Below the pieces are notes generated by a model. The model searched no databases. It was not told where the DNA came from and saw only the letters and a list, made by a program, of their open reading frames with translations. A DNA stretch of 64,000 nt from Vescimonas fastidiosa (GTDB lineage: Bacteria > Bacillota > Clostridia > Oscillospirales > Oscillospiraceae): contig NZ_AP023415.1 in assembly GCF_018326305.1 (NCBI RefSeq), positions 248,001-312,000 of the forward strand, given 5' to 3'. Positions 17,768 through 40,352 of this stretch are shown here, one piece after another; position 1 is the first letter of the stretch, and the number at the start of each line of letters is the position of its first letter. The position numbers and the translations under genes are program-made.

Positions 17768-17768
17768 C

Positions 17769-17818
17769 AGGCACTTGCCATTTTCAGATTGAGAATGATA
17801 AGTGCCTTTTCTTTTTTA
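17769..17818 (+). terminator. Hairpin terminator between relaxase and primase
   Basis: AGGCACTT pairs with AAGTGCCT across a long loop and is followed by TTTCTTTTTT. The equivalent hairpin occupies 37189-37233 in the topB-inserted element. It limits read-through into the primase, whose ribosome-binding site lies directly after. Confidence 0.7.
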
Positions 17819-17833
17819 CAAGGAGGAATTGAT

Positions 17834-18478
17834 TTGAATGTATTTGAAGCTGTGAAGCAGTCCGTTACGACAAGACAGGCTGCGGAGCATTACGGAATCC
17901 GGGTAAACAGAAACGGGATGGCTTGCTGCCCGTTCCACAACGATAAGACCCCCAGCATGAAGCTGGACAAGCGTTTCCACTGCTTCGGATGTGGTGCAGA
18001 TGGGGATGTGATTGATTTTGTAGCTGCCCTGTACGGTCTGGGGAAAAAGGAAGCCGCCGCACAGTTGGCGAGTGACTTCGGGCTTGCCTATGAGGACTGG
18101 AAGCCACCGGGCAGGGCAAGGAAGCCCAAGCCCCGGCAGAAATCCCCGGAAGAACAGTTCCGGGAAGCAAAGGCACATTGCTTCCGTGTCCTTGCCGATT
18201 ATCTACACCTCTTACGGGTATGGAAAACCGACTATGCCCCGCACTCCCCGGAGGAAGCGTTTCATCCCCGGTTCGTGGAAGCCTTGCAGAAGCAAGCCCA
18301 TGTGGAATATCTGCTGGATGTGCTGCTGTTCGGGGAGACAGAGGAAAAAGCGGTTTTGATTATGGACTACGGAAAGGATGTGATACAGCTTGAACAGCGA
18401 ATGGCAGAGCTTGCAGCCGCAGACGCAGCAAGAACTAAAAAACACCATGAACGCCATGCAGCCGCCCCAGAGCGTTGA
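17834..18478 (+). CDS. CHC2 zinc-finger primase-like protein
   Basis: This 214-residue protein has a DnaG-type zinc finger at residues about 26-55 (CCPFHNDKTPSMKLD, then FHCFGCGADGDVIDF). No TOPRIM catalytic domain is present, so the protein is the zinc-binding part alone, and a helicase-primase partnership with the next gene is likely. The start is TTG (17834) after AAGGAGG. The homologue at 37250 starts at ATG with the same NVFE sequence. It overlaps the VapE-like gene by 89 bp. Confidence 0.85.
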   Translation: MNVFEAVKQSVTTRQAAEHYGIRVNRNGMACCPFHNDKTPSMKLDKRFHCFGCGADGDVIDFVAALYGLGKKEAAAQLASDFGLAYEDWKPPGRARKPKPRQKSPEEQFREAKAHCFRVLADYLHLLRVWKTDYAPHSPEEAFHPRFVEALQKQAHVEYLLDVLLFGETEEKAVLIMDYGKDVIQLEQRMAELAAADAARTKKHHERHAAAPER

Positions 18479-19784
18479 GGAAGTAAAGGCAACTCTGGAA
18501 ACCACCGAGAAAGGCGGCGTCCGCCAGAGCATACGGAACTGCCTGACCGTATTCCAGCGTGACCCTGTGCTTGCCGGGGCAATCGCCTACAACATCCTGA
18601 CCGACCGCAAGGACATCATAAAGCCCATCGGTTTTCACAGAGAAAGCACAGCCCTGACCGATACGGACATGAAGTATCTGCTTCTCTATCTGGAGGAAAC
18701 CTACGGGCTTACCAGTGAGAAAAAGATTGAAACCGCCATCGGGATTGTGGCGAATGAGAATAAGTACCACCCCATCCGGGATTTTCTGAACAGCCTTGCA
18801 TGGGACGGGACTGAGCGCATCCGCTTCTGTCTGCGGCACTTTCTGGGAGCTGATGTGGACGATTACACCTATGAAGCCTTGAAGCTGTTCATGCTGGGGG
18901 CGATTACAAGGGCATTTAAGCCCGGAAGCAAGTTTGAAATCATGCTGTGTCTGGTAGGCGGTCAGGGGGCTGGCAAATCCACCTTCTTCCGGCTGCTGGC
19001 AGTCCGGGACGAGTGGTTTTCCGATGATTTGCGGAAGCTGGACGATGATAACGTGTACCGCAAGCTGCAAGGTCACTGGATAATTGAAATGTCGGAAATG
19101 ATGGCAACCGCCAATGCCAAGAGCATTGAGGAAATCAAGTCCTTTCTAAGCCGCCAGAAAGAGGTTTACAAAATTCCCTATGAAACTCACCCGGCAGACC
19201 GCCCCCGTCAATGCGTGTTCGGCGGCACTTCCAACGCCCTTGACTTTCTCCCCCTTGACCGTTCCGGCAACCGCCGATTTATCCCGGTCATGGTGTACCC
19301 GGAGCAAGCCGAGGTTCACATTTTGGAGGACGAAGCCGCTTCCAGAGCCTATATCAGCCAGATGTGGGCGGAAGCAATGGAGATTTACCGAAGCGGCATG
19401 TTCAAGCTGTCATTCAGCCCAGCCATGCAGCGGTATCTCAAAGAACACCAGCGGGATTTTATGCCGGAGGACACCAAAGCCGGGATGATACAGGCTTACC
19501 TTGATAAGTACACCGGGGAAACGGTCTGCTCCAAGCAGCTCTACAAGGAAGCCTTAAACCACACCTTTGATGAGCCGAAGCAATGGGAAATCCGGGAAAT
19601 CAACGAGATAATGAACCAGTGCATTACCGGGTGGAACTACTTTTCCAATCCGAGGATGTTTGCGGAATACGGCAGACAAAAGGGCTGGGAGCGTGAAATC
19701 CCGGCAACGGACACCGACAACCCGCCCGAAAAATCTATGGACGGTTTTGTGGAGGTCACAGAGCAGATGGAGCTTCCATTCTGA
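18390..19784 (+). CDS. VapE-like (PF05272) P-loop replication protein
   Basis: This 464-residue protein of the virulence-associated E family has Walker A LVGGQGAGKSTFFRLL near residue 192 and Walker B-like WIIEMSEM near 232, followed by an arginine-finger-type segment (DRSGNRRFIPV). Such SF3-like helicases replicate integrative satellites and phages. The start is probably TTG 18390 inside the primase gene, as in the homologue at 37800 where AGGAGG precedes it. A later ATG at 18447 is possible. The origin-like repeats at 19789-20010 lie directly downstream. Confidence 0.85.
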   Translation: MNSEWQSLQPQTQQELKNTMNAMQPPQSVEEVKATLETTEKGGVRQSIRNCLTVFQRDPVLAGAIAYNILTDRKDIIKPIGFHRESTALTDTDMKYLLLYLEETYGLTSEKKIETAIGIVANENKYHPIRDFLNSLAWDGTERIRFCLRHFLGADVDDYTYEALKLFMLGAITRAFKPGSKFEIMLCLVGGQGAGKSTFFRLLAVRDEWFSDDLRKLDDDNVYRKLQGHWIIEMSEMMATANAKSIEEIKSFLSRQKEVYKIPYETHPADRPRQCVFGGTSNALDFLPLDRSGNRRFIPVMVYPEQAEVHILEDEAASRAYISQMWAEAMEIYRSGMFKLSFSPAMQRYLKEHQRDFMPEDTKAGMIQAYLDKYTGETVCSKQLYKEALNHTFDEPKQWEIREINEIMNQCITGWNYFSNPRMFAEYGRQKGWEREIPATDTDNPPEKSMDGFVEVTEQMELPF

Positions 19785-19788
19785 AAAT

Positions 19789-20010
19789 GACAGCCCGTTG
19801 CCGACTTCGTTGCTATCCCGTTGCCGAGCCGGTTGCCGGGGAAAATCCCTTATTTCCGGGCTTTTTCCCTCTCTGACAACCAAAACAACAGAAAAATAAA
19901 AGAAAAGTATAAATAGTAATCAACGCCAGATTGAGATTGTTTGCAAGGTCTTTTGAAGCCCGTTGCCGGACTTCGTTGCCGACCGTTCTCTGTCTGGCTA
20001 TTTTCATGTA
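19789..20010. other. Iteron-like origin candidate (GTTGCCG repeats)
   Basis: GTTGCCG or a one-to-two-base variant recurs at 19797, 19809, 19820 and 19832 (spacing 12, 11, 12) and again near 19971 and 19975-19985. The two clusters flank an AT-rich stretch (about 19879-19923). The same layout with GTTGTCG instead occupies 39180-39400, after the other VapE-like gene. Iterons around an AT-rich unwinding segment beside a primase-helicase suggest a replication origin (inference). Confidence 0.6.
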
Positions 20011-20026
20011 TGGAGGATAACTGCCT

Positions 20027-20224
20027 ATGGCGAAAAATAAGACCAAGATTGAAGTGACAACCGTATTTGACGGGGAACTGGACGCCACCGATGTGTTCGT
20101 CAGCCTGATTTCCCAGAAATACGGCAAAACAAATACAAAAGAATATCTTGCTAAAAAGAAAGATTTGAAGTATAATGAAGATGAGGTTCAACAGAGCCAG
20201 ATACCGTCTGGATTGTGTGGGTAA
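20027..20224 (+). CDS. TnpW-like transposon protein
   Basis: This 65-residue protein (MAKNKTKIEVTTVFDGELDATDVFVSLIS) has a beta segment followed by a helix, as in the relatives at 9180 and 39424. Its stop codon touches the recombinase start, so the two are co-translated. A promoter for the recombinase lies within this gene (20148-20176). The role is unknown. Confidence 0.7.
   Translation: MAKNKTKIEVTTVFDGELDATDVFVSLISQKYGKTNTKEYLAKKKDLKYNEDEVQQSQIPSGLCG
20148..20176 (+). promoter_or_regulatory. Internal promoter for second recombinase
   Basis: TTGCTA (20148-20153), a 17-bp spacer and a perfect TATAAT (20171-20176) lie inside the TnpW-like gene, about 50 bp before the recombinase. Unlike the topB-inserted element, this promoter is not split by the attachment site. 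Confidence 0.6.
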
Positions 20225-21895
20225 ATGGCTATGATGAACGAAATGGAATACAGAACAATCGGTTCAGCACTTGCCGGGGGCTATCGTGCGGCGGTCTATT
20301 GCAGGCTGTCAAAGGACGATGACCTGCAAGGCGAAAGTGCCAGTATCGCAAACCAGCGTGATATGCTGGAAAAATACTGCGAAAAGCAGGGATGGGAGGT
20401 TGTGGCAGTCTATCAGGACGATGGCTTCACAGGTCTTAATATGGAGCGTCCTGATTTACAGAGAATGTTGAGAGCCATTGAGCGCAGGCAAATCAACCTT
20501 GTCATCACGAAAGACCTCAGCCGACTGGGGCGTAACTATTTGCAAACAGGGCATTTGATTGAGGACTTTTTCCCAAGAAACGGTGTCCGCTATATCGCCA
20601 TGAATGACGGTATCGACACCCTGCGGGATAACAACGACATCGCCCCGTTCAAGAATATCCTGAACGAGATGTACAGCAAGGATATTTCCAAGAAAGTCCA
20701 TTCCTCTTATCTTCTGAAAGCGCAGAAAGGACAGTTTACCGGGTGTCTTGCCCCGTTTGGGTATCGGAAAGACCCGGAGGACAAAAACCATCTGCTCATT
20801 GACGAGGAAACCGCCCCGATTGTGCGGCTGATTTTCGGATATGCCCTAAACGGTCATGGTCCGAACTATATCCGCAGACGGCTGGAGGAAGAAAAAATCC
20901 CCTGCCCCACATGGTGGAACCGGGAACGGGGGCTTCGCAATACCCGCACCAAATGGGAAAAGAAAGACCCGGAAAACGGGCGGTATATGTGGGACTTTTC
21001 CGTTATCAAAGACCTTTTGATGAATCCCGTTTACACTGGGGCGATTGCTTCCCAGAAAAAGGACTACCGTTTCAAAATCGGCACGATTGGGGAAAAGAAG
21101 CCGGAGGACTGGATTGTAGTGGAAGGACAGCATGAACCGCTGATTGACCGCATGAGCTTTGACATTGTGCAGAACAAGCTGAAATCCCGCCAGCGTCCGG
21201 GGCAGACCAATGAAATCAGCCTGTTTGCCGGACTGATAAAATGCGGCGAGTGTGGGAAGTCTCTGACGGTACGCTACACAAACGCAAAACATCCCCAGCA
21301 GATTTACTCCTGCAAGACCTACAATGCCTTTGGAAAGAACCACTGCACCCAGCACCGGATTGATTATGACACCCTTTACAGTCATGTGCTGCGGAAAATC
21401 CGGGAATGTGCCAGAGCTGCCCTGATGGACGGGAAAGCGGTTGCTGACCGCCTGACCAATACCTGTGAAGCCGAGCAGCGGGAACAGCGGGAAGCAATGG
21501 AACGCTCCCTTACAAGGGACGAGGAACGGATTGAGGTTCTGGACAAAATGGTAATGCGGCTTTATGAAGATATGATTGCAGGGCGTATCAGTGAGCAGAA
21601 CTTCAACACCATGCTGGAAAAGACACAGACCGAGCAGACGGAACTTAAAACAAAAGTGTCCGAGGGCAGAAAGCGGCTGTCCGATGAAGTCCAGCTTGCC
21701 AATGACGCAAAACAATGGGTGGAAGCCATTCAGGAATATGCCAACATCACAGAGTTGGACGCAGCCACCCTCAACCGCTTAATCAAAGAAATCGTCGTGC
21801 ATGAGCGCATTGACGAAGATAAAACAAGACACATTTCTATCGAAATTCATTTTAATCTCAAACCCATCCCGGAGGTGGAACAGGTCACTGCCTGA
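20225..21895 (+). CDS. Large serine recombinase (right-end, maff2 insertion)
   Basis: This 556-residue large serine recombinase has the catalytic domain AAVYCRLSKDDDLQGESASI (serine of RLS), LSRLGRNYLQTGHLIEDFF, a recombinase domain, a zinc ribbon (CGECGKSL...CKTYNAFGKNHC, about 340-380), a coiled coil and IVVHERIDEDKTRHISIEI at the end. It starts directly at the TnpW stop; a second ATG lies at 20231. The gene ends 93 bp before the maff2 junction at 21988-21989, so it is the likely enzyme for that insertion. Confidence 0.92.
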   Translation: MAMMNEMEYRTIGSALAGGYRAAVYCRLSKDDDLQGESASIANQRDMLEKYCEKQGWEVVAVYQDDGFTGLNMERPDLQRMLRAIERRQINLVITKDLSRLGRNYLQTGHLIEDFFPRNGVRYIAMNDGIDTLRDNNDIAPFKNILNEMYSKDISKKVHSSYLLKAQKGQFTGCLAPFGYRKDPEDKNHLLIDEETAPIVRLIFGYALNGHGPNYIRRRLEEEKIPCPTWWNRERGLRNTRTKWEKKDPENGRYMWDFSVIKDLLMNPVYTGAIASQKKDYRFKIGTIGEKKPEDWIVVEGQHEPLIDRMSFDIVQNKLKSRQRPGQTNEISLFAGLIKCGECGKSLTVRYTNAKHPQQIYSCKTYNAFGKNHCTQHRIDYDTLYSHVLRKIRECARAALMDGKAVADRLTNTCEAEQREQREAMERSLTRDEERIEVLDKMVMRLYEDMIAGRISEQNFNTMLEKTQTEQTELKTKVSEGRKRLSDEVQLANDAKQWVEAIQEYANITELDAATLNRLIKEIVVHERIDEDKTRHISIEIHFNLKPIPEVEQVTA

Positions 21896-29165: not shown

Positions 29166-29350
29166 GATATTTCACCAATAATCCGCTGGAACGCCTGATG
29201 ATGCAGAAGCCGAAAGCAGTGCGGGAGGACAGCCCTCCCGACGCTGCCAAGGAACACTTCTGCTACGGCTGCAAGCGCTTCGGACAGAGCTGCGTTCGCC
29301 CCTGCTACCGTGACGTAAAGAGAATGGAGGCTGCACCATGCGCCTTGTGA
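29162..29350 (+). CDS. Small Cys-containing ICE protein
   Basis: This 62-residue protein has HFCYGCKRFGQSCVRPCYRD near residues 34-53, a C-x2-C...C-x3-C cluster that could bind zinc. It overlaps the DUF4366 stop (ATGA) and the topB start, so it is a coupled gene of the transfer operon. I do not know its function. Confidence 0.65.
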   Translation: MRYFTNNPLERLMMQKPKAVREDSPPDAAKEHFCYGCKRFGQSCVRPCYRDVKRMEAAPCAL

Positions 29351-30713
29351 TCGCCGAAAAACCCTCCGTGGCGCAGAGCATCGCCGCCGTGCTGGGTGCA
29401 AAATCACGGCATGACGGGTATCTGGAGGGCGGCGGGTACATCGTGTCGTGGTGCTTCGGGCATCTGGCAGAGCTGGCCGACGCCGCCGTTTACAATGCCG
29501 ATGATGCCAAATGGACGCTGGCGGCGCTGCCCATCATTCCTACCTCGTTCCGCTTCATCGTCCGCTCTGAAAAGCAGAAGCAGTTTGATATTCTGCGGGA
29601 GCTGATGCGCCGGGAGGATATGACCGAGGTGGTCAACGCCTGCGACGCTGGACGCGAGGGTGAGCTGATCTTCCGCACGGTTTACTGCCTTGCGGGATGC
29701 TCCAAGCCGATTCTGCGGCTTTGGATTTCCTCAATGGAGGATGATGCCATCCGCAGCGGCTTCCAGCAGCTTAAATCCGGGCGTGACTATGACGGCCTGC
29801 ATCAATCCGCCCTCTGCCGCGCCAAGGCTGATTGGCTGGTTGGTATCAACGCCACGCGGTATTTCTCCCTGACGTATGGCCGCACATTGAACATCGGGCG
29901 CGTCATGTCGCCCACGCTGGCGCTGCTGGTACAGCGCGAGGCGGAGATCTCCGCATTTGCGGCAGAACCGTTCTACACCGTCCAGCTCGATTGCGGCTTT
30001 CCCGCCACGACAGGCCGAATGAAGGACAGGAAGGACGCCGACGCCATCGCCAACGCCTGCAAGGGCAAGGCAGTAACCGTCAAAAGCGTGGAGCGCAAGG
30101 AAAAGTCTGAGAAAGCGCCCGCGCTCTACGATTTGACCTCCCTCCAGCGCGACGCCAACCGCGTTCTCGGCTACACCTCTCAGCAGACCCTCGACTATCT
30201 CCAAGCCCTCTATGAAAAGAAGCTCTGTACCTACCCGCGCACCGACAGCCGCTTCCTGACCGACGATATGGAGGGCAGCGTCCCCGGCCTTGTTGCCGCT
30301 GCTGCCGCTGTCTGCGGCACGGAGAAGCCGCCGACCATCTGCGCCAAGCAGGTATGCAGCAGCCAAAAAGTCACCGATCACCACGCTATCGTCCCCACCA
30401 TCAGCGTGGAAAAGGTAGATATGGCCTCTCTGCCGCTGGGCGAACGCGAGGTGCTGAAGCTGGCGGCAAGGGGCTTGCTTCGTGCGGTGGATGAACCCCA
30501 CCGCTATGCAGAAACGCTCATTACGGTGGACTGTGCCGGTCAGAGCTTCACCGCCAAGGGCAAAACCGTTCTTGCTCCTGGCTGGAAGCGCTATGAGCAG
30601 GAGCAGACGGAGGCAGCGCCCGCGCTGCCGGTGGTAACGGATAATCAGACGCTTTCCGTATCTGCCGCGTCGGTCAAGACCGGAAAAACCACGCCGCCCA
30701 AGCATTTCACCGA
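29338..30713 (+). pseudogene. topB: DNA topoisomerase III, 5' part (interrupted)
   Basis: Type IA topoisomerase: the TOPRIM start LVIAEKPSVAQSIAAVLGA and the acidic motif ACDAGREGELIFR near residue 100 are intact, with the active-site tyrosine in CTYPRTDSRFL near 298. The gene is cut at GA 30712-30713 after PPKHFT. In the integrated state the frame runs 19 foreign codons further and stops at 30771, giving a 477-residue product without the C-terminal zinc ribbons. Joining 30713 to 39668 restores PKHFTEDTLLSAMENAG and a 686-residue enzyme. Confidence 0.92.
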
Positions 30714-30767
30714 TGTGATATTTTGTGAGCGTAAGGAGTGGATAGGAATTGAAGAAAGGAGTTCAGC

Positions 30768-32690
30768 ATGAGAAGAAAAAAAGATAGAAGCAATGGCATT
30801 ACTGCTTTGTATGAAAGACTGTCTCGTGATGATGATAATGCTGGAGAGAGTAACAGTATAGTTCATCAAAAGCAAATGCTTGAAGATTATGCTATGAAAC
30901 ATGGTTTTACGAATCTTGTTCATTTTACCGATGATGGTTGGAGTGGAGCGACTTTTGACAGACCTTCATGGAACAGACTTGTTGAAGGTGTTAAAAACGG
31001 AGAAATCACTGCCTGTATCTGCAAAGATATGTCCAGAATCGGCAGAGATCATCTGCAAGTAGGTTTTTTCACTGACATTCTGTTTAGAGAAAAGGAAGTT
31101 CGATTTATAGCAATCAATAATGGTATTGACAGTGACCGTCAAGAAACCAGTGAGTTTGCCCCTTTTCTGAATATCATGAATGAGTGGTTTGTCAGGGACA
31201 CAAGTAAGAAAATTAAAGCTGTACTGAAATCCAGAGGTTCTTCCGGCAACGCTCATACAAGTAATATCCCACCATACGGCTATTTGAAAGACCCCGAAAA
31301 CCCCGACCATTGGATTATTGATGAAGAAGCTGCTGAAGTAGTCCGCAGAATTTATCGCATGACTATTGAGGGAAAAGGACCTTATCAGATAGCAAGAGAA
31401 CTTTCAGAAGAAAAAATTGAAAGACCATCTTATTATCTTGGCAAAAAGGGACTTGGAAATCATGCAAGCAACTATGACAAAGAAAATCCGTATATGTGGC
31501 GAGGAAATCAGGTTACTACTCTGATTGCCCGACCAGAGTATATCGGAAAGACTGTCAATTTCAGGACATTCAAAAATTCCTATAAGGACAAAAAGACGAA
31601 AAGGGCAGATAAGGAAGATTGGGTGGTTTTTGATGATACACAAGAGCCTATTGTCGATGAAGAAACATGGCTGCTTGCTCAAAAGTTAAGACAGAATGTA
31701 AGAAAAGCAGATCCTATGGGCGAGCCTAATGTTCTGACCGGAAAGATTTACTGTGCTGATTGTGGTGCGCCGATGTATAATCACAGGCAGCGGAAAGGGC
31801 GAGAAAGAATATACTATACTGCCAAAGGCGAAAAAAGGACAAGTTATTCCAATCCGGCAGATTGTTATGAATGTTCCACATATAATCTTGCTTATCAGAA
31901 GTATGACCGACATTGTACTTGCCACCATATTTCAACAAAAGCACTTAAAAGCATCATTCTGAAAACCATACAGGAGACTTGCCATTATGTTTCTTTGAAT
32001 GAGCGGGAGTTTGTTTATTCTCTGCAAGAAGAATCGGCGATGAAAGATATTGCTGTTTCTGAAACTGTAAAAAACCGCATTGAAAGAAATCAGAAGCGAG
32101 TTCACGAACTGGATATGCTTATCAGGAAAATCTATGAAGATAATGTGATTGGAAGATTGCCGGACAGACTTTTTCAGAGTATGCTTACTGATTATGAAAA
32201 TGAGCAGAACGAGCTGAACAAGATTATTGAGACTGACACCGCTGATATGCAACGGATTATAGGCGGTCAAAATAATGTGGAGCGTTTTCTAAAGCTGGTT
32301 AAAAAGTATGAGAACATTACAGAACTTACTCCTGCCATGATAAATGAATTTATCGACAAAATACTGGTTCACGAGCCACAAGGAAAAGGTGCAGACCGCA
32401 CCACAGAGGTGGAGATATATCTTAACTATGTCGGGCAATTTCAAGTACCTGTGGAGCAGCATGAACCAACCGAGGAAGAAAGGATTGCTGCTGAAAAAGA
32501 GGCGGAACGACTTCGCAGAAAACGAGAATCCAATCGTAAGTATATGAAAAAGATTCGTGAGAAATCAAAAGAATTTGCGGAGCATGAGCGTATAGCAGAA
32601 GAAAAAAGCTCTGATAGCAATGTGTGTGTTGAACAGAACGCCACAAGCAAATCAAATCGGCAAAAAGTGAAAGGAGAAAAAATAGCATGA
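30768..32690 (+). CDS. Large serine recombinase (topB insertion)
   Basis: This is a 640-residue recombinase. The catalytic domain has ALYERLSRDDDNAGESNSI (serine of RLS) and MSRIGRDHLQVGFFTD. The zinc ribbon has CADCGAPMY and later cysteines (about 325-390), followed by a coiled coil, a DUF4368-like region, and an unusually long charged tail (about 565-640) rich in Glu/Arg/Lys. It is AT-rich compared with the ICE. AAAGGAG precedes the ATG. The ATG overlaps the stop of the broken topB frame (ATGA). The matching promoter exists only in the circular form (see 39650-39667). Confidence 0.93.
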   Translation: MRRKKDRSNGITALYERLSRDDDNAGESNSIVHQKQMLEDYAMKHGFTNLVHFTDDGWSGATFDRPSWNRLVEGVKNGEITACICKDMSRIGRDHLQVGFFTDILFREKEVRFIAINNGIDSDRQETSEFAPFLNIMNEWFVRDTSKKIKAVLKSRGSSGNAHTSNIPPYGYLKDPENPDHWIIDEEAAEVVRRIYRMTIEGKGPYQIARELSEEKIERPSYYLGKKGLGNHASNYDKENPYMWRGNQVTTLIARPEYIGKTVNFRTFKNSYKDKKTKRADKEDWVVFDDTQEPIVDEETWLLAQKLRQNVRKADPMGEPNVLTGKIYCADCGAPMYNHRQRKGRERIYYTAKGEKRTSYSNPADCYECSTYNLAYQKYDRHCTCHHISTKALKSIILKTIQETCHYVSLNEREFVYSLQEESAMKDIAVSETVKNRIERNQKRVHELDMLIRKIYEDNVIGRLPDRLFQSMLTDYENEQNELNKIIETDTADMQRIIGGQNNVERFLKLVKKYENITELTPAMINEFIDKILVHEPQGKGADRTTEVEIYLNYVGQFQVPVEQHEPTEEERIAAEKEAERLRRKRESNRKYMKKIREKSKEFAEHERIAEEKSSDSNVCVEQNATSKSNRQKVKGEKIA

Positions 32691-33070
32691 CAGAATTGAA
32701 ACTACGAATCCATGACGAAAGCAACGGTCTGGACTATGTTCTTGTGGGTGATTACTATGTGCCGGACTTGAAGCTACCGGAGGAACACCGCCCTATCGGT
32801 ATGTGGGGCAGACTGCACAGGACATATTTGGAGCAGTACCGCCCTGCAAGGTTCTCTGCCCTCTGTTTATCCGGCGAACTGCATACTTACCTTGCTGATC
32901 TGAACGAACAGGCAACGGAAAGGTGCAGCCTTATCATTGAGCAGATGAAACAAGCCGAGGGCGTGACCGAAACCATGAAAGCAGACAATCAGATGTTGTG
33001 GGTACAGTCCATGAACTCTATCCGTAACCGAGCCGAAGAAATCATCAGACAGGAAATGATTTACTGCTGA
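32687..33070 (+). CDS. TnpV-like transposon protein
   Basis: This 127-residue protein has the core YVLVGDYYVPDLKLPEEHRP and ends IIRQEMIYC, close to the protein at 11606-11983. It overlaps the recombinase stop by 4 bp, so the two are coupled. No function is demonstrated for TnpV. It has higher GC than the recombinase upstream, suggesting mosaic origin of the element. Confidence 0.82.
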   Translation: MTELKLRIHDESNGLDYVLVGDYYVPDLKLPEEHRPIGMWGRLHRTYLEQYRPARFSALCLSGELHTYLADLNEQATERCSLIIEQMKQAEGVTETMKADNQMLWVQSMNSIRNRAEEIIRQEMIYC

Positions 33071-33179
33071 TTTTATCAAGTCCAAAACCAACAAATTTGT
33101 ATCGTAAACGAAGCGACAGGTATTTCCTTATGAAGTGTCTGTCGCTTTTCATTTATCAAACTTTAAGGAGGAAAACACA

Positions 33180-33428
33180 ATGAAGATGAACCGGAATGAA
33201 ATGGAAGCCCTTTATGCCTTTGGCTGTCCGAACCTGAAAGCAACTGTCGAGCGTTTGCGTATGGTAGCTGCCCTTGCACCCGATCCAGTGGCGAAGAAGC
33301 TGTTTTATATGCTTTCCGTCAAGCTGAGTGCTGAGGGTGTTGAAAGGTGGTATCGCTGCTTTTACTGCAAGCTGCGTGTGTTGAAAAACCATAGGGAGGG
33401 CTGCTATGACGAGACTGACGAAGATTGA
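33180..33428 (+). CDS. Conserved small protein of the nested element
   Basis: This is an 82-residue protein (MKMNRNEMEALYAFGCPNLK) with a helical middle and late cysteines (RCFYCKLRV...C). AAGGAGG precedes the ATG at 33180. I do not recognise the family. Its end overlaps the next gene by 23 bp, so the two form an operon. Confidence 0.65.
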   Translation: MKMNRNEMEALYAFGCPNLKATVERLRMVAALAPDPVAKKLFYMLSVKLSAEGVERWYRCFYCKLRVLKNHREGCYDETDED

Positions 33429-33714
33429 GAAAGAAACAATCGTTCTCTTTAATGAGGGCGAGGACAAGGCAAATATCTACACCCACAACGCCGGATTGAA
33501 AAAGAGGTTGGCTGCTTTTGCTAAGAAGTACCCTGACCTTTGCCGACTGGAAAAATCCAATGTTCAAGGCGGTGTTTCTTATGAGCTGGCAAAGTCCCGT
33601 CTGTCTATCCGTTTCCTGCCGCCTTACAGTGAGGAACGCAGACAGAAAGCCAGTGAATATGCGAAAAAGCATGGGCTGAACAGCCAGCAGGGATACTGTG
33701 ATAATCAGGGCTGA
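33406..33714 (+). CDS. Conserved hypothetical protein, basic
   Basis: This 102-residue protein begins MTRLTKIEKETIVLFNEGED. It has IYTHNAGLKKRL and later KSRLSIRFLPPYSEERRQKA, giving a basic, partly helical protein that could bind nucleic acid. No family is recognised. It lies just before the first repeat-bounded cassette. Confidence 0.6.
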   Translation: MTRLTKIEKETIVLFNEGEDKANIYTHNAGLKKRLAAFAKKYPDLCRLEKSNVQGGVSYELAKSRLSIRFLPPYSEERRQKASEYAKKHGLNSQQGYCDNQG

Positions 33715-33761
33715 TATGCGGTTAAAATGTCAGGTGCAAACCTGATGTTTTGACCGTTGCC

Positions 33762-33820
33762 TATCGCCTGTGAGGAAAGTATCGGAGACTATAAATTTTA
33801 CGGAAATGTGCGTTACAAGG
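33762..33820 (+). repeat. Cassette 5' repeat, copy 1
   Basis: This stretch of about 58 bp contains TATCGCCTGTGAGGAAAGTA. It recurs at 34668-34725 with few differences. Each copy stands about 90-140 bp before a cargo gene. Confidence 0.85.
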
Positions 33821-33961
33821 TTTGAACAGGAACTCTGTACACAAAATTTTTTCTTCCATTCTTTAAGTTGATGAAGTATAATGAGATATGAAAAATTGAG
33901 GTTTTTAATACTCGATTTCAAATAATCATTTTTATATAGCTGGAACTATGGAGGGCAAAAA

Positions 33962-34531
33962 ATGAATGATTTTTTACGAATGTGTTTGAATATAATTACA
34001 CAAATAGGCCCCTATTTAGTTGTACTTCTTCTTTTGAAATATCTTGTAAATCTTCAACAAAAGAGAGCTAAAGAACGAGAGGAAGAACAGAAAAAGGGAA
34101 TAATTAGAACGCATTATACAATAAAAACAGAGAAATTCCTTGTCGTGGCATTTATCGTAGGTACAATATTTTTTGCTTGTTGTACGGCTATGAGTCTTAG
34201 GGAAAAAGAAGATATGTTTGTCATTTGTATATTTGGAATATTTTTTTTAGTAGGCATAAGCGGAATAGTCAATATGGTAATGTGGAAACTGGAAGTGAAC
34301 GGAGATGAAATCACATGGCGGTCAACTTTTGGAAAAAAGAGAACTTTTCGTTTTGGGGATATTACCTACTGCGAGAGAAAAAAAGGTTCTGTGCGTGTAT
34401 ATGTAAATGGGGAAAAGCTATTTACCATTGATAGTAATATCGATAAAGAAGAATTTATGGAAGATATAGAGAGAAGAAGAATCCCTGTAAAATCTTACTG
34501 GACAAATCAGCATAAGAAGAATCGTAAATGA
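33962..34531 (+). CDS. Two-TM membrane protein, cassette 1 cargo
   Basis: This 189-residue AT-rich protein has a TM helix at about 10-28, a charged loop (about 30-55), two further TM helices at about 58-78 and 88-110, and a cytoplasmic beta-rich domain (about 112-180: KLEVNGDEITWRSTFGKKR, FRFGDITYCERKKGSVRVYV). The C-terminal part resembles a PH-like fold seen in small DUF membrane proteins. It lies alone between the repeats of cassette 1, with GGAGGG before the ATG. The function is unknown. Confidence 0.65.
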   Translation: MNDFLRMCLNIITQIGPYLVVLLLLKYLVNLQQKRAKEREEEQKKGIIRTHYTIKTEKFLVVAFIVGTIFFACCTAMSLREKEDMFVICIFGIFFLVGISGIVNMVMWKLEVNGDEITWRSTFGKKRTFRFGDITYCERKKGSVRVYVNGEKLFTIDSNIDKEEFMEDIERRRIPVKSYWTNQHKKNRK

Positions 34532-34559
34532 CATAGATTTTATAACAGTACGATGTTAG

Positions 34560-34636
34560 ACAACTGAATATGACCGTCAAAGTCGGATGAAGAAACCGAT
34601 GTATTGAGCGTAAAGCGATCATGCGTCGGTTTTTCT
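34560..34636 (+). repeat. Cassette 3' repeat, copy 1 (with terminator)
   Basis: This 77-bp stretch begins ACAACTGAATATGACCGTCA and ends in CGTCGGTTTTTCTT. AAACCGA pairs with TCGGTTT, so it also acts as a terminator. It differs from 35591-35667 at about two bases. Confidence 0.88.
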
Positions 34637-34667
34637 TATTTCATGAGCTGACAGAATTCCGACTGTA

Positions 34668-34725
34668 TATCGCCTGTGAGGAAAGTATCGGAGACTATGG
34701 ATTTTGCGGAAATGTGCGTTATAGG
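34668..34725 (+). repeat. Cassette 5' repeat, copy 2
   Basis: This is the second copy of the block at 33762-33820, starting TATCGCCTGTGAGGAAAGTA. It precedes the gene at 34818. Confidence 0.85.
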
Positions 34726-34755
34726 TAAGTAAAAAACTACTTGATAGAGCGTGAA

Positions 34756-34784
34756 TTGAATTGTTCATATCGGTATGATATAAT
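34756..34784 (+). promoter_or_regulatory. Promoter of cassette 2 gene
   Basis: TTGAAT (34756-34761), a 17-bp spacer and a perfect TATAAT (34779-34784) lie 34 bp before the start at 34818. Cassette 2 therefore carries its own promoter as well as a terminator. Confidence 0.7.
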
Positions 34785-34817
34785 TTACTGAAATGAAGCA
34801 AGAAGGTGGACTTTTGT

Positions 34818-35567
34818 ATGAAAAAATTTTTGAAAATATTGCTAATCATTGTAGGAATAGTTTTTTTGATTTTTGCAGCGCTGATATGTATTGGACTGTT
34901 TGTTGATTATGATGACCATATTGAAAATGGTCGTTATACTTATGTTCCGGAAGATGACAATAAAGACAATGCATATGTCGAATTCAATTTGAGTGATTAC
35001 GATAAAAAGGATTCTGAACTCATATATTATAGTTCTGTCGAAGAAGCTATTTTGAATTCTCCTTTGAATGCTGAAAATGAAGAATTTTCTGTTCCAGAAG
35101 ATTTTCTTAATCATGTTGATGAAATATTGCATATATGGAATGGCAAACAGTATGATACTATTTTCTATCGGGCAGGAAGTGATAACGATCCCGTTCAAGG
35201 TTTTGTGATTGCACGCTGCAAAAAAAAGATAGAAAATGAAAGTACACAATATGCGTTTGTAAATGCTACACCAGCTACCACTACACCAGATACCACTTAT
35301 GGGGGAGACTTCAAAAAATTTATCCATTTATCTTTAACAATAAGTGATATTCAACAAGACTTAAATCCAAATTATCCGGATACCAGATTCGTTTTTGGCT
35401 ATGCACATGATAAAGAAATTTACTCATTAGAAGTAGAAGGTCAAAAGCCAGATGGGATTATAGAATATGAAGAATATGGTAGAACGATGTATATGTGGTA
35501 TTATAACGATTTGAAAAGCAATAAAAGAGGCGATTGTCTGAGCTACTCAGTAGATGTGCCAGAGTAA
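34818..35567 (+). CDS. Membrane-anchored exported protein, cassette 2 cargo
   Basis: This 249-residue AT-rich protein has a single N-terminal TM anchor (FLKILLIIVGIVFLIFAALI, about 3-28). An acidic extracellular domain follows with no recognised family. Notable segments are YYSSVEEAILNSPL (about 75), DTIFYRAGSDNDPVQGFVIA (about 113) and RFVFGYAHDKEIYSLEVEGQ (about 193). ATG 34818 follows AGAAGGTGG. The gene stands alone with its own promoter and a terminator-bearing repeat. The function is unknown. Confidence 0.65.
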   Translation: MKKFLKILLIIVGIVFLIFAALICIGLFVDYDDHIENGRYTYVPEDDNKDNAYVEFNLSDYDKKDSELIYYSSVEEAILNSPLNAENEEFSVPEDFLNHVDEILHIWNGKQYDTIFYRAGSDNDPVQGFVIARCKKKIENESTQYAFVNATPATTTPDTTYGGDFKKFIHLSLTISDIQQDLNPNYPDTRFVFGYAHDKEIYSLEVEGQKPDGIIEYEEYGRTMYMWYYNDLKSNKRGDCLSYSVDVPE

Positions 35568-35590
35568 TTTTTCAAATTGGCTAATCTGCC

Positions 35591-35667
35591 ACAACTGAAT
35601 ATGACCGTCAAGGTCAGATGAAGAAACCGATGTATTGAGCGTAAAGCGATCATGCGTCGGTTTTTCT
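35591..35667 (+). repeat. Cassette 3' repeat, copy 2 (with terminator)
   Basis: This is the second copy of 34560-34636, beginning ACAACTGAATATGACCGTCA, 24 bp after the cassette 2 stop codon. AAACCGA/TCGGTTT stem with a T tract. Confidence 0.88.
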
Positions 35668-35672
35668 TTTTG

Positions 35673-35954
35673 CAAAATAGTCCGGTGGACTGTTTTGTAA
35701 AACCGAAGGAACTGACAGAGCTTGGGATGGGGTGAAGTCAGTTTGTTCGGGCGGGAGTACAGAGGGTGCAACCCTTTGTGCATGGGTACAGGGAATGCAA
35801 TACCCCTGTGCAGGTCAAGGGCGGCAGCCTTGCCCAGTTAAGTGGCGCTTCGCCACTTAATACTGGGTATTACTTGACGCAGAAAGCCGCAAGGAATCAG
35901 CTTCGCTGCCCTTCTCCCCTGTCGGGGAAATCAAAAAGAAAAGGAGGAACTCAT
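35673..35954. other. Hairpin-rich region before MobV relaxase, likely oriT
   Basis: No gene is supported. Inverted repeats follow each other: GGTGCAACC with GGTACAGGG-type pairing near 35767-35800, AAGTGGCG/CGCCACTT (about 35839-35857), CCCAGTTAAG with a nearby TACTGGG, and CCCCTGTCGGGG (about 35916-35927). The relaxase follows immediately. MobV enzymes nick near short hairpins upstream of mob, so an origin of transfer is likely here, but the nick site is not identified. Confidence 0.5.
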
Positions 35955-37187
35955 GTGAAATTAACAAGACACAATGGACGAGCCGGAAAGAATGGCGTTT
36001 ATAACCCGAAGCACAATGACCGCAGTTTTGACATTGCCAACAGCGAACACATTGACGAAGAACGAGCCAAACAAAATCTCTATTGGGACTGTTACAATGG
36101 CTTTCGCAATTTCAAAAATCCCGAAAAGGAAAATGAGCTGTCTGCCACTTTTGAAGATGTGGAACAGCTTTTTTATCGTCAGCGGTATCATGATTTTGTA
36201 ACAGGACAGAATGAAAGAAATGTGAAGAACCGACACCCTGAAAGAAATAAGGAAACTGGAGATTTACTCAAAAGCAAAAAGACCTGTCCAGAGGAAACGG
36301 TCTATCAGATTGGAACGCTTGACAATCATGTTCCGCCGGAATTGCTCATTGAGATCGTCACAGAATTTATGGAAATCGCAAATGAGCGTTTCGGCTCTCA
36401 TGTCCATATCCTGAATTGGGCGCTGCACTTGGATGAAAGCACCCCTCATATTCACGAGCGTCATGTGTTCGACTGTGAAAATCAATATGGAGAGATTGCC
36501 CCACAACAGGAAAAGGCTTTGGAAGCATTGGGGTTTGAACTGCCGGAACCGGAGAAGCCAGTCGGAAGAAAAAACAACCGCAAGATGACTTTCGATTCAG
36601 CTTGCCGAGTGCTGCTGTTTGATGTGGCGAAAAAGCATGGCTTACAACTGGAAGAAGAACCGGAATATGGTGGTCGTGCATATCTGGAAAAACAGGACTA
36701 TATTCTTTTCAAGCAAAAGGAGCAACTGGCAGCACAGGAGCAAAAGTTGGAAGAACTCACGATGAAGATTGAAGATGTGGAAGCTTTGGTGGACGAGGTT
36801 GCCGATATTGCCTATGACAAGGCGGTTGAGGTCGTTGCTGATACTGTAAAACTGGAAACGCACAAGGAGGATATTAAGCTGGTGGAGCAGTCTAAGGCGT
36901 GGGTTCTCTCCCCTGAGCGTAAGGCTTCAAAGAAAGAAGTTGAGTATGCAGTGAAACGATTGGATGGCGTGATTGCCAGAATCACAAATGCTATGAAATC
37001 AACTATTCAGAAAATCCAAACTACGCTGATGAAACCGGAGGTCAAAAAAGCCGGAACGGAGCAAATCAAGAAGAAAGCCAAAAGTTCCATTATAGAGCAG
37101 TTGAGCCGCAAGAAGAAGGAAATGGCAGAGCGTGAAGTCAGCCGGACAATTCCGGCGAAAAGCAAAAAACAGGATATGGAACTTTAA
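35955..37187 (+). CDS. MobV-type (Mob_Pre) relaxase
   Basis: This 410-residue relaxase has the metal-binding motif HLDESTPHIHERHV near residue 160, the H-x-D-E-x-T-P-H-x-H signature of MobV/Pre enzymes. The N-terminus KLTRHNGRAGKNGVYNPKHN precedes it. The C-terminal half is helical and ends KSKKQDMEL, the same last residues (QDMEL) as the MobQ relaxase at 16193. The start is GTG 35955 with AAGGAGG seven bases before; the ATG two bases upstream meets TGA at once. It mobilizes the element using the ICE channel. Confidence 0.85.
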   Translation: MKLTRHNGRAGKNGVYNPKHNDRSFDIANSEHIDEERAKQNLYWDCYNGFRNFKNPEKENELSATFEDVEQLFYRQRYHDFVTGQNERNVKNRHPERNKETGDLLKSKKTCPEETVYQIGTLDNHVPPELLIEIVTEFMEIANERFGSHVHILNWALHLDESTPHIHERHVFDCENQYGEIAPQQEKALEALGFELPEPEKPVGRKNNRKMTFDSACRVLLFDVAKKHGLQLEEEPEYGGRAYLEKQDYILFKQKEQLAAQEQKLEELTMKIEDVEALVDEVADIAYDKAVEVVADTVKLETHKEDIKLVEQSKAWVLSPERKASKKEVEYAVKRLDGVIARITNAMKSTIQKIQTTLMKPEVKKAGTEQIKKKAKSSIIEQLSRKKKEMAEREVSRTIPAKSKKQDMEL

Positions 37188-37188
37188 G

Positions 37189-37233
37189 GCACTTGCTATT
37201 TTCGTTTTGAAAATGACAGGTGCTTTTTTCGTT
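37189..37233 (+). terminator. Hairpin terminator between relaxase and primase
   Basis: GGCACTTG pairs with CAGGTGCT-type sequence across a loop with ATTTTC/GAAAAT pairing, followed by TTTTTTCG. It is homologous in place and shape to 17769-17818. Confidence 0.65.
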
Positions 37234-37249
37234 TCTGGAAAGGAGTCAC

Positions 37250-37888
37250 ATGAATGTATTTGAAGTTGTAAAAGAAAATGTTACTGCCCGACAAGCCGCA
37301 GAAGCCTATGGCTTGAAAGTGGGTCGCACTGGTATGGCGTGCTGTCCGTTTCACTCGGATAAGTCCCCCAGTATGAAGCTGGATGAACGCTATTACTGTT
37401 TTGGCTGCGGAGCAACTGGAGACGCTGTTGATCTGACAGCGAAGCTATTCGGTATCGGGCTGAGGGAAGCTGCTGTCAAACTTGCTGAAGATTTTGGTCT
37501 TAACTATGACAGCCGACAAAAGCCCAGTATTCGCCCTCGTATTCGTGAGCCGACACCGGAACAGAAGTATCAAAAAGAAGAAAATCATTGCTACAAGGTG
37601 CTGACGGATTATTTTCATCTTCTTAGAGAATGGGAAAAGAAATACGCTCCTAAACAGCCGGATGAGGAATGGAATCCCCTGTTTGCAGAAGCACTGTATA
37701 AGAAGAACTATATCGAATATCTACTTGATATTCTTCTGTATGGTTCATTGGAGGAACGAAAAGCACTTGTGGCAGAACAGAGAAAGGAGGTGTTAAAACT
37801 TGAACAGCGAATTGCAGAACTGTCAGCAGACAGAACCATGCACAGTAGAAGAAATCCGAAACAGCTTAGAGCAGAGCGAGAAAGGTAA
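37250..37888 (+). CDS. CHC2 zinc-finger primase-like protein
   Basis: This 212-residue protein is a homologue of the gene at 17834. Its zinc finger has CCPFHSDKSPSMKLD and YYCFGCGATGDAVDL (residues about 26-55). No TOPRIM domain is present. The ATG follows GGAAAGGAG. Its end overlaps the VapE-like gene by 89 bp, exactly as in the other element, so the gene pair is an inherited module. Confidence 0.85.
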   Translation: MNVFEVVKENVTARQAAEAYGLKVGRTGMACCPFHSDKSPSMKLDERYYCFGCGATGDAVDLTAKLFGIGLREAAVKLAEDFGLNYDSRQKPSIRPRIREPTPEQKYQKEENHCYKVLTDYFHLLREWEKKYAPKQPDEEWNPLFAEALYKKNYIEYLLDILLYGSLEERKALVAEQRKEVLKLEQRIAELSADRTMHSRRNPKQLRAERER

Positions 37889-39176
37889 GGTTTATAATAC
37901 TGCCGCAAATTATAAGCGTGTTCTGCAATATGACCCACTTTTGAAAGGGGCTATCCGAAAAAATCTTCTGACCGAAAGAATCGACATTGTGAAGCCCCTC
38001 GGTTGGTATCGTGACAGCCCGACATTGACGGATGTGGATGTGAAATATCTGCTCCTATATTTTGAAGAAAACTATGGATTGACCGTAGAGAAGAAAATCA
38101 TAGACGCAGTTGCGGTTATTGCCAATGAAAATCGTTACCACCCTGTCTGTGATTTTCTCAATGCCTTGCAATGGGACGGAACAGAACGCATACGCTTCTG
38201 TCTGCACCGCTTTCTCGGTTCTGATACAGATGATTACACCTATGAAGCATTGAAGTTGTTTCTGCTGGGTGCTATCTCACGAGCTTTTAAGCCGGGGTGC
38301 AAATTTGAGGTTATGCTCTGTCTTGTGGGCGGTCAGGGAGCCGGAAAGTCCTCTTTCTTCCGTTTGCTTGCGGTCAATGATGACTGGTTCTCTGATGACT
38401 TGAAAAAGCTGGATGATGAAAATGTGTACCGCAAAATGCAGGGGCATTGGATTATTGAAATGTCGGAAATGATTGCAACCGCCAACGCTAAGAGCATTGA
38501 AGAAATCAAGTCCTTTCTGAGCCGCCAAAAGGAAACCTATAAGATACCCTATGAAACACATCCGGCAGACAGAAAAAGACAATGTGTGTTTGGTGGTTCT
38601 TCTAATACCCTTGACTTTCTTCCCCTTGACCGAACAGGCAACCGCCGCTTCGTTCCGGTTATGGTCTATCCTGAAAGGGCTGAGGTTCATATTTTGGCAG
38701 ATGAACAGGCTTCCAGAGAGTATATCAATCAGATGTGGGCAGAAGCTATGGAGATTTACAGAAGTGGCAATTTCCGTCTGAGATTCAGTCCGGCTATGAA
38801 CGCTTATCTGAAAGCCCACCAAAAGGACTTTATGCCGGAGGACACAAAGGCAGGACAGATTTTAGACTATTTGGAACGCTATTCCGGCAGCATAGTCTGC
38901 TCTAAGCAGCTTTACAAGGAAGCACTGGGGCATGATTATGACGAACCGAAACAATGGGAGCTGCGAGAGATCAACGACATTATGAATAACGCTGTCACAG
39001 GCTGGAGGGCGTTCAGCAATCCGAGGTATTTTCCAGAGCCTTACCGCCGACAAAAGGGCTGGGAGCGTATCAGGAATGACAACGAGCCTGACAACAGCAT
39101 GGATGGTTTTCAAGAAATCCCGACAGAGGAAATGGAACAGTTAGGACTTCCGGAAGAATGGTTGAAGCAAAAATAA
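37800..39176 (+). CDS. VapE-like (PF05272) P-loop replication protein
   Basis: This 458-residue protein has Walker A LVGGQGAGKSSFFRLL near residue 183, WIIEMSEMIATANAKSIEE near 220 and DRTGNRRFVPVM near 280. It is homologous to 18390-19784 over its length. The start is TTG 37800, with AGGAGG nine bases upstream inside the primase gene. It probably acts as the replicative helicase of the excised circle. Iteron-like repeats follow directly. Confidence 0.87.
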   Translation: MNSELQNCQQTEPCTVEEIRNSLEQSEKGKVYNTAANYKRVLQYDPLLKGAIRKNLLTERIDIVKPLGWYRDSPTLTDVDVKYLLLYFEENYGLTVEKKIIDAVAVIANENRYHPVCDFLNALQWDGTERIRFCLHRFLGSDTDDYTYEALKLFLLGAISRAFKPGCKFEVMLCLVGGQGAGKSSFFRLLAVNDDWFSDDLKKLDDENVYRKMQGHWIIEMSEMIATANAKSIEEIKSFLSRQKETYKIPYETHPADRKRQCVFGGSSNTLDFLPLDRTGNRRFVPVMVYPERAEVHILADEQASREYINQMWAEAMEIYRSGNFRLRFSPAMNAYLKAHQKDFMPEDTKAGQILDYLERYSGSIVCSKQLYKEALGHDYDEPKQWELREINDIMNNAVTGWRAFSNPRYFPEPYRRQKGWERIRNDNEPDNSMDGFQEIPTEEMEQLGLPEEWLKQK

Positions 39177-39179
39177 AAG

Positions 39180-39400
39180 CCCGTTGTCGCTTCGGTTGTC
39201 GAGCCGGTTGTCGGTCTGGTTGTCGGGCAAAAATCCCGAAAGCCTTGATATTGCGGCACTTTTCCCTCTCTGACAACCATGACAACCAATATTATAAAGA
39301 AAAAGGAAATAGTAAAAAGATAGTATCGCCCGATAAAGAAAAAAGGTTTTCTGATGTCCGTTGTCGGAACTTCGTTGTCAGACCTTTCCTTGTCGGGCTT
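39180..39400. other. Iteron-like origin candidate (GTTGTCG repeats)
   Basis: GTTGTCG recurs at 39183, 39195, 39207 and 39219 (exact 12-bp period), inverted as TGACAACC at 39271 and about 39281, and again at about 39359, 39373 (one change) and 39389. The clusters flank an AT-rich stretch (about 39287-39350). The partner element has GTTGCCG in the same positions (19789-20010). This is probably the replication origin recognised by the primase-VapE module (inference). Confidence 0.65.
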
Positions 39401-39423
39401 TTTCATTCAAGGAGGAATATCGT

Positions 39424-39621
39424 ATGACAAATATTGTGAACAGTACACTACCCACCCCAAATAACCATTCGGAGAAAAACAAACCGGATGGAGTTTTTGT
39501 GATTAAGCAAGGCAAAACAAATTATAAAGTCAAAGTGTTTTTTGACCATAGTAGCGGTTTGACTGCGGAGGACAGGTTGAAACGCATTATTCAGGCAGAA
39601 GCAGAGAGAGAATCTGCGTAA
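39424..39621 (+). CDS. TnpW-like transposon protein
   Basis: This 65-residue protein has GVFVIKQGKTNYKVKVFFDH then TAEDRLKRIIQAEAE, similar in layout to 9180 and 20027. It is the last gene before the right end. After circularisation it would lie directly upstream of the recombinase, the same order as in the other two units. AGGAGG precedes the ATG. Confidence 0.72.
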   Translation: MTNIVNSTLPTPNNHSEKNKPDGVFVIKQGKTNYKVKVFFDHSSGLTAEDRLKRIIQAEAERESA

Positions 39622-39649
39622 GTAATATGAAAAATATCCACGCACCCCC

Positions 39650-39667
39650 TTGACAAAAGCTTTCAGA
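39650..39667 (+). promoter_or_regulatory. Split recombinase promoter: -35 half at the right end
   Basis: A perfect -35 box TTGACA lies at 39650-39655, 12 bp before the right junction. The left end supplies TGTGATATTTT (30714-30724). In the circle, TTGACA is followed by 17 bp and then TATTTT with a TGA extended -10. In the integrated form the -35 position facing the recombinase is topB sequence without a match. Confidence 0.75.
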
Positions 39668-40352
39668 AGATACCCTCCTGTCCGCTATGGAGAACGCAGG
39701 AAAGGATGATATCCCCGATGAGGCGGAGCGAAAAGGTCTTGGCACGCCTGCGACCAGGGCGGCTATCATCGAAAAGCTGGTGGCAGCCGGATTTGTGGAG
39801 CGCAAGGGCAAGAGCCTGATCCCCACGAAAGCAGGTATCAACCTTGTTACGGTCCTGCCGGAGCCGCTGACCTCTCCCATGCTGACAGCGGAATGGGAAC
39901 AGAAATTGACGGAGATCGCAAAGGGCGGCGCTGACCCGGATACCTTCATGGACGGTATCCGCACGATGGTCCAGGAGATCGTGTCCACCTATTCCTGCAT
40001 TTCCGAGGATGGCAAAAAGCTGTTTGTCCCGGAGAAGGAAGTGATCGGTACCTGCCCCCGCTGCGGTCAGCCGGTCTATGAGGGCAAGAAGAACTTTGCG
40101 TGTTCGGATCGGTCCTGCGGTTTCGTCCTCTGGAAAAATGATCGCTTCTGGACGAGCCGCAAGAAGGAGCTGACAAAGAAAATGGCAGCGGACCTTCTGA
40201 AAAAGGGACGTACCAATGTCAAGGGAATGTGGTCTGAAAAGAAACAGACCACTTATGACGCTGCGGTGATCCTGAACGACACGGGCGGCAAGTACATCAA
40301 TTTCAAGCTGGAATTTCCAAAAAGAAAGGTTGGTGCTGATGGCAGAAAATAA
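39668..40352 (+). pseudogene. topB: DNA topoisomerase III, 3' part
   Basis: The frame continues from the left part as DTLLSAMENAGKDDIPDEAE, then RKGLGTPATRAAIIEKL, the typical end of the type IA catalytic core. A C-terminal zinc ribbon CPRCGQPVYEG...CSDRSCGF follows. It has no start of its own. The coding capacity is restored only when the element 30714-39667 excises at GA. Confidence 0.92.

Follow-up and report, generated by a model that had tools for sequence, protein, structure and literature searches.

In the circular intermediates of the Clostridium elements Tn4451 and Tn4453, a promoter for the recombinase TnpX is reportedly formed, to judge by the title of a work by Lyras and Rood from 2000. 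The circles of IS911- and IS30-type elements, which are short and encode DDE transposases, also assemble a promoter from a -35 and a -10 hexamer located in opposite ends. A promoter of this kind is predicted here for a Tn4451-type element at positions 30714-39667 of the window, i.e. of the whole stretch of 64,000 nucleotides from Vescimonas fastidiosa that was analysed (NZ_AP023415.1, positions 248,001 to 312,000, forward strand). The element interrupts topB at a GA dinucleotide, and Pfam analysis of its proteins gave TnpX-type recombinase domains, TnpV, TnpW, a CHC2 primase-like protein and a VapE-like protein. Judged from its sequence, it is quite probable that the excision circle would unite the -35 of the right end and the extended -10 of the left end into a promoter with a 17-bp spacer, reading into tnpX. 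Such a joint promoter is an extension of the published Tn4451 principle and not a new principle.

The integrases of ICEclc and ICEKp1 are tyrosine integrases. According to passages of PMC13023037, ICEKp1 in its integrated state relies on transcription that reads through from the promoter of a host tRNA, and on another promoter once it is circular, and a state-dependent integrase promoter, Pcir, is discussed for ICEclc; in contrast to the present element, the promoter is described there as located in the 3' end and moved beside the integrase gene, not as split by the crossover. Passages of PMC3158075 report for Tn6104 of C. difficile a TnpX-related recombinase, a TnpV homologue, demonstrated excision and a 2-bp repeat that borders the element at both ends, as in the present case, and recurs in its circle and its empty site, but this element has another host and a joint promoter is not mentioned in those passages. 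The element of the window resembles Tn4451 and Tn4453 in its TnpX, TnpV and TnpW proteins (by Pfam), and the 2-bp core given for Tn4451 in passages of PMC5704250 has its counterpart in the GA at both ends. It differs from Tn4451 in two respects: a low target specificity is reported for the latter in the same passages, whereas 12 of the 15 near-identical copies of the present element with a readable flank are located in topB, and the stop codon of the interrupted topB overlaps the start of tnpX.

Ends of the element and the predicted circle joint

The features on which the predicted joint depends are listed below.

29338..30771, + strand: 5' piece of the topB gene carried by the host element, topoisomerase/Toprim (Pfam Topoisom_bac 1.8e-74 and Toprim; list of open reading frames)
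30712..30713, + strand: left copy of the GA crossover dinucleotide (GA in 13/13 left ends of near-identical copies)
30716..30724, + strand: left half-promoter, TGA and TATTTT, predicted extended -10 (from the sequence; the hexamer begins 5 bp inside the element)
30755..30761, + strand: AAAGGAG, predicted ribosome-binding site (from the sequence)
30768..32690, + strand: tnpX, large serine recombinase of 640 amino acids (Pfam Resolvase, Recombinase, Zn_ribbon_recom, DUF4368)
39424..39621, + strand: tnpW, the last gene, which would adjoin tnpX once the circle closes (Pfam TnpW PF14202, 25.9 bits against a cut-off of 25)
39649..39655, + strand: CTTGACA, half-promoter of the right end with the predicted -35, probably also a half-site motif of the recombinase (sequence comparison)
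39666..39667, + strand: right copy of the GA crossover dinucleotide (CAGA in 10/10 right ends of near-identical copies)
39668..40352, + strand: 3' piece of topB (Pfam Topoisom_bac 7.8e-23 on 39687-40352)

The left end starts with TGTGATATTTT at 30714, in which TGA (30716-30718) is directly followed by TATTTT (30719-30724), with AAAGGAG at 30755-30761 and the ATG at 30768 further downstream. In the right end TTGACA is found at 39650-39655, separated from the junction by 12 bases with the GA core included. When the ends were joined in silico, TTGACA was followed by 10 base pairs (bp), GA, 5 bp and TATTTT, which amounts to a 17-bp spacer with TGA before the -10 hexamer. The initial annotation had proposed both the position of TTGACA, 12 bp from the junction, and the promoter-like arrangement obtained by joining at GA, with ribosome-binding site and ATG behind it. 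Both were confirmed in the sequence, the ends being fixed by near-identical copies.

These copies, hereafter clade A, encode recombinases that are ~97-100% identical to the TnpX of the window and occur in another genome of the genus, in records that include Holdemanella, Faecalibacillus, Blautia, Flavonifractor and Clostridium fessum, as well as on one viral contig and one Subdoligranulum plasmid record. Similarity among them breaks off at exactly the borders seen in the window, in 13 left ends and 10 right ends. Because the copies stop matching at the same bases with a GA border, both ends of the element can be regarded as fixed. Twelve different flanks adjoin the 13 left ends (one is shared by L012 and L024), and the presence of near-identical copies at different sites implies movement. 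The three copies located outside topB are L015, L017 and L025; the fragments L026 and L035 were excluded from the 15 copies.

With the element integrated, GCCCAA occupies the position 17 bp upstream of TATTTT, with a 1/6 match to a -35 (by eye), and the best -35 at a spacing of 16-18 bp matches at 2/6. Between -80 and the ATG, the best promoter-like match is 7/12 in the integrated left end versus 10/12 at the circle joint. Among random joints of the element's own sequence, a split promoter of at least 10/12 was obtained in 708 of 300,000, and one that also had TGn in 173 of 300,000. It is scarcely credible that the joint is a coincidence and that a working promoter is contained in the integrated left end itself. 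The extended -10, TGATATTTT, does lie wholly in the left end and might work without a -35, but no integrated match exceeds the 7/12 given above, and the split layout recurs across clades. The earlier statement that the integrated -35 position is without a match thus held. The further claim, that the promoter exists only in the excised circle, stood in so far as a good integrated -35 is lacking; tnpX is not necessarily silent in the integrated form, where read-through is likely. The suggested sharing of the Tn4451 tnpX logic found support in the TnpX, TnpV and TnpW content and in the split geometry across clades.

The split layout in other TnpX-type elements

For the comparison, 60 genomes of relatives, 295 of the order and 392 of the class were searched in overlapping draws; in the order and class searches the best 3-4 candidates per genome were scored under strict E-value limits, so that the numbers found are lower bounds. 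A total of 100 stretches was retrieved and 134 TnpX-type places were taken. In 71 of them the left flank contained what could be part of a split target, and both parts were present in 37. After removal of L014 (spurious) and L126 (another clade-A copy) and addition of L017 (ends by alignment), 36 bounded elements in 8 clades were available, and the remaining 98 of the 134 places are outside the bounded table. A ninth clade, represented by L071, was bounded by hand. Borders were taken from the protein split between the left flank and the downstream stretch, to within some codons, or in clade A from the alignment of copies. The exact border bases were set from the element ends, partly by text patterns containing CTTGAC, and the count for all right ends therefore rests on reading the ends first. 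The TnpX proteins of different clade representatives are 33-62% identical.

Among the places collected, the compact clade-3 element L113 has 4657 bp between its ends. The plasmid locus L127 and the fecal-phage record L128 enter no count; L127 (NZ_CP085731.1), an IncC plasmid record, carries a TnpX relative at 53% identity, and its annotation alone lists TnpW, MobA/MobL and predicted aminoglycoside resistance genes.

The right ends of the 36 bounded elements carry TTGACA (30) or TTGACT (6). A -10 of at least 4/6 at 17-18 bp is present in 32 of the 36 joints, with TTGACA-17-TATAAT in L105, and not one of the 36 has an integrated -35 above 4/6. In clades 0, 3, 139 and 4, a hexamer resembling a -10 is as far from the core as in the window element. 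The geometry of 10, 2 and 5 bp fits clades A, 0, 3 and 139 and L071; in clades 088 and 105 the core could not be placed inside the stretch common to both ends. Summed over the nine clade representatives (first row each), the -10 matches amount to 39 against a null mean of 23.1, and this sum was reached in 0 of 20,000 random-position draws. Since the geometry recurs in clades that were bounded via interrupted target proteins, a functional joint promoter is likely. The titles and abstracts of open-licence papers yielded no survey of joint promoters across TnpX elements, and nothing on a fixed geometry across clades, on half-site overlap or on coupling to co-directional targets.

Inverted repeats within ~100 bp upstream of tnpX were seen by eye in L083-L091 and L139-L150, a possible leader hairpin that falls just after the predicted -10 in the VirD4 site-2 elements. 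An outward promoter reading from the right end into the flank was considered and rejected, with -10 matches in the right attachment site (attR) of at most 4/6 (L155, L017) and otherwise 0-3.

Several observations weigh against the predicted joint promoter or its generality. TATTTT in the window is a 4/6 match only. Clade 155 (3 elements) keeps CTTGACA with a poor -10, TAACCT at 16 bp, and L117 combines a poor -10 with a TTGACA only 4 bp from the core, so that the spacing is broken. The TnpX tree (midpoint root) places clade A together with elements whose gene order is permuted: tnpV is located close to their left end, and tnpW, an apparently intact promoter and tnpX form an uninterrupted block. 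In L071, the sole permuted element with its right end placed, CTTGACA is present in the same geometry but the joint faces tnpV, and the -10 is only 3/6 in 2 of the 6 left ends examined in this sister clade. Many further TnpX relatives (clusters 2 and 5, several single ones) have by eye a TATAAT-like, apparently intact promoter upstream of the integrated tnpX. The ends of these relatives are not placed, so the split layout is not established as a family rule; it is common among the elements bounded here. The circle joint itself was not encountered: that of clade A had 0 exact matches in viral contigs and in its own genome and, with mismatches allowed, 0 in 394 genomes of the order, those of three other clades 0 exact matches in viral contigs, and those of two of these clades, with mismatches allowed, 0 in 20 and 8 carrier genomes. 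As rare forms are usually lost from assemblies by collapsing, these zero counts say little.

As a separate observation, the sister-clade elements L013, L014, L067, L068, L070 and L071 (with L173-L178) are inserted in other genes for TnpX-type recombinases, in the 5' part around ..NSI.NQ. One mobile element thus disrupts the recombinase gene of another, of which the 3' piece was recovered for L071 alone.

The conserved CTTGACA could also have been kept only for the binding of TnpX, in which case the ends would be inverted half-sites and the promoter likeness a by-product. In some left arms CTTGACA is indeed mirrored, equally far from the core, by TGTAAAG, TGTGAGC or TTTTAAG, the arms are identical at 11/18 positions in the window element and 13/18 in L071, and the motif persists in clade 155, L117 and L071. 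However, arm identity is merely 3-10/18 in the other rows. In 8 of 9 clades the right arm, compared with the mirrored left one, has the better -35, clade 117 being the reverse case; the better -10 is on the left arm in 7 of 9 with 2 ties, and the left-arm -10 matches exceed those at random positions, as the draws mentioned above indicate. Binding alone is consequently judged unlikely as the explanation. The arms are unequal in the direction that a promoter needs, and promoter and half-site functions are therefore probably both present; conversely, as CTTGACA is kept where the -10 is poor and where the joint faces tnpV, the same bases probably also serve as recombinase half-sites. In passages of PMC3783163, an integrase of the A118 type is described to contact the entire 25-bp half-site of the phage attachment site (attP), with a zinc-domain motif at positions 16-24. 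In the present elements CTTGACA lies in what appears to be a repeat bound by the recombinase, and some bases probably belong to the promoter and to the attachment site alike.

Target genes and the integrated state

Targets were assigned by Pfam. The clade-A target is topB and that of L105 a SNF2-type helicase gene, while a VirD4-type coupling protein is interrupted at one site in clades 0 and 139, at a second in clade 3 and at a third in clades 088 and 117 and in 2 of the 3 elements of clade 155. The target is on the same strand as tnpX in 33 of the 35 elements with a split target protein. Of the two exceptions, L116 is a scoring artefact, its match being to an antisense frame of the same VirD4 site on the + strand; L161 is the genuine one and lies antisense to an ATP-binding cassette (ABC) transporter gene. 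Clade-4 target genes are also co-directional, so that the usual target is co-directional in all nine clades, which makes read-through of the integrated tnpX likely. L161 counts against a strict rule of orientation, as do two of the clade-A copies outside topB, L017, which lies in no evident gene, and L025, which is possibly antisense (by eye).

The interrupted topB frame of the window runs into the element and stops at TGA (30769-30771), overlapping the tnpX ATG as ATGA. This overlap is shared by 7 of the 8 topB copies that were bounded. The exception is L021, which lacks one base in the A run after the ATG and whose tnpX start was called elsewhere by the script. In five clade-0 elements (L093, L094, L095, L097, L099) the VirD4 fragment stays open in frame through the whole of tnpX, giving fused frames of ~1000 amino acids. 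Translational coupling was rejected as a family rule, as the target frames end 37-174 nucleotides before tnpX in many elements.

The integrated tnpX is probably read through from the target gene, the transcription of which may supply the TnpX for excision. That tnpX is driven mainly by such read-through, with the joint promoter of minor importance, agrees with the co-directional targets, the ATGA overlap and the in-frame VirD4 fragments. It is nevertheless very unlikely, as the circle has no interrupted gene upstream, which leaves tnpW or the right end as the only source of read-through, and the recurring geometry of the joint would be left unexplained.

With a joint promoter active in the circle, the following sequence of events can be proposed. 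While the element is integrated, tnpX would be transcribed together with the co-directional gene that it interrupts in the host element, by read-through, and in the window translation of the topB fragment would terminate at the ATG of tnpX. In the excised circle, the joint promoter would take over and supply TnpX for re-insertion, and insertion would split it again. As -35 and -10 would each be part of one recombinase half-site, the crossover would fall within the spacer of the promoter, and we infer that the attachment site itself may be the switch. For much of the TnpX family we put forward, tentatively, a wider possibility: the attachment site may be the promoter, with half-sites that also act as -35 and -10 in a constant 10-2-5 bp geometry, cut by insertion and rebuilt by excision, and co-directional insertion into genes of conjugative elements (topB, VirD4-type, SNF2-type helicase) may let the host transcript trigger release. 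A promoter split at the crossover would allow a recombinase gene to report its integrated or excised state without a regulator. If the geometry holds widely, joint promoters would be predictable in many mobile elements of the gut, the attachment sites used by this class of recombinase would be easier to recognise, and the coupling of passenger element and conjugative carrier would be directly testable.

Remaining genes of the element and of the window

The other genes of the element are given below.

32687..33070, + strand: tnpV (Pfam TnpV PF14198, E 1.4e-42)
33962..34531, + strand: DUF6560 protein, cargo (Pfam)
34806..35567, + strand: protein of 253 amino acids without a Pfam family, cargo (list of open reading frames, Pfam)
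35829..37187, + strand: probable relaxase of 452 amino acids (weak Mob_Pre match, E 0.0036, below the Pfam cut-off)
37220..37888, + strand: CHC2 zinc-finger primase-like protein (Pfam)
37800..39176, + strand: VapE-like protein (Pfam)

The probable relaxase contains the motif HLDESTPHIH, which we take to be MobV-like. The relaxase of Tn4451 is of the MobV type according to passages of PMC5704250. NCBIfam gave no name above its cut-offs. The tnpX stop and the tnpV start overlap as ATGA (32687-32690), like the arrangement of the topB fragment and tnpX.

Further + strand genes of the window encode by Pfam a relaxase, a TraG-type ATPase and ArdA, and from these the host of the Tn4451-type element appears to be a conjugative element. 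At 1015-2934 an elongation factor G (EF-G)-like GTPase of 639 amino acids (Pfam) is encoded, probably a ribosomal-protection tetracycline resistance gene by inferred function. A MobA/MobL relaxase, a VapE-like protein and a second TnpX-like recombinase at 16193-21895 probably constitute another mobilizable element nearby, and an additional TnpX-like gene is located at 9480-11090.

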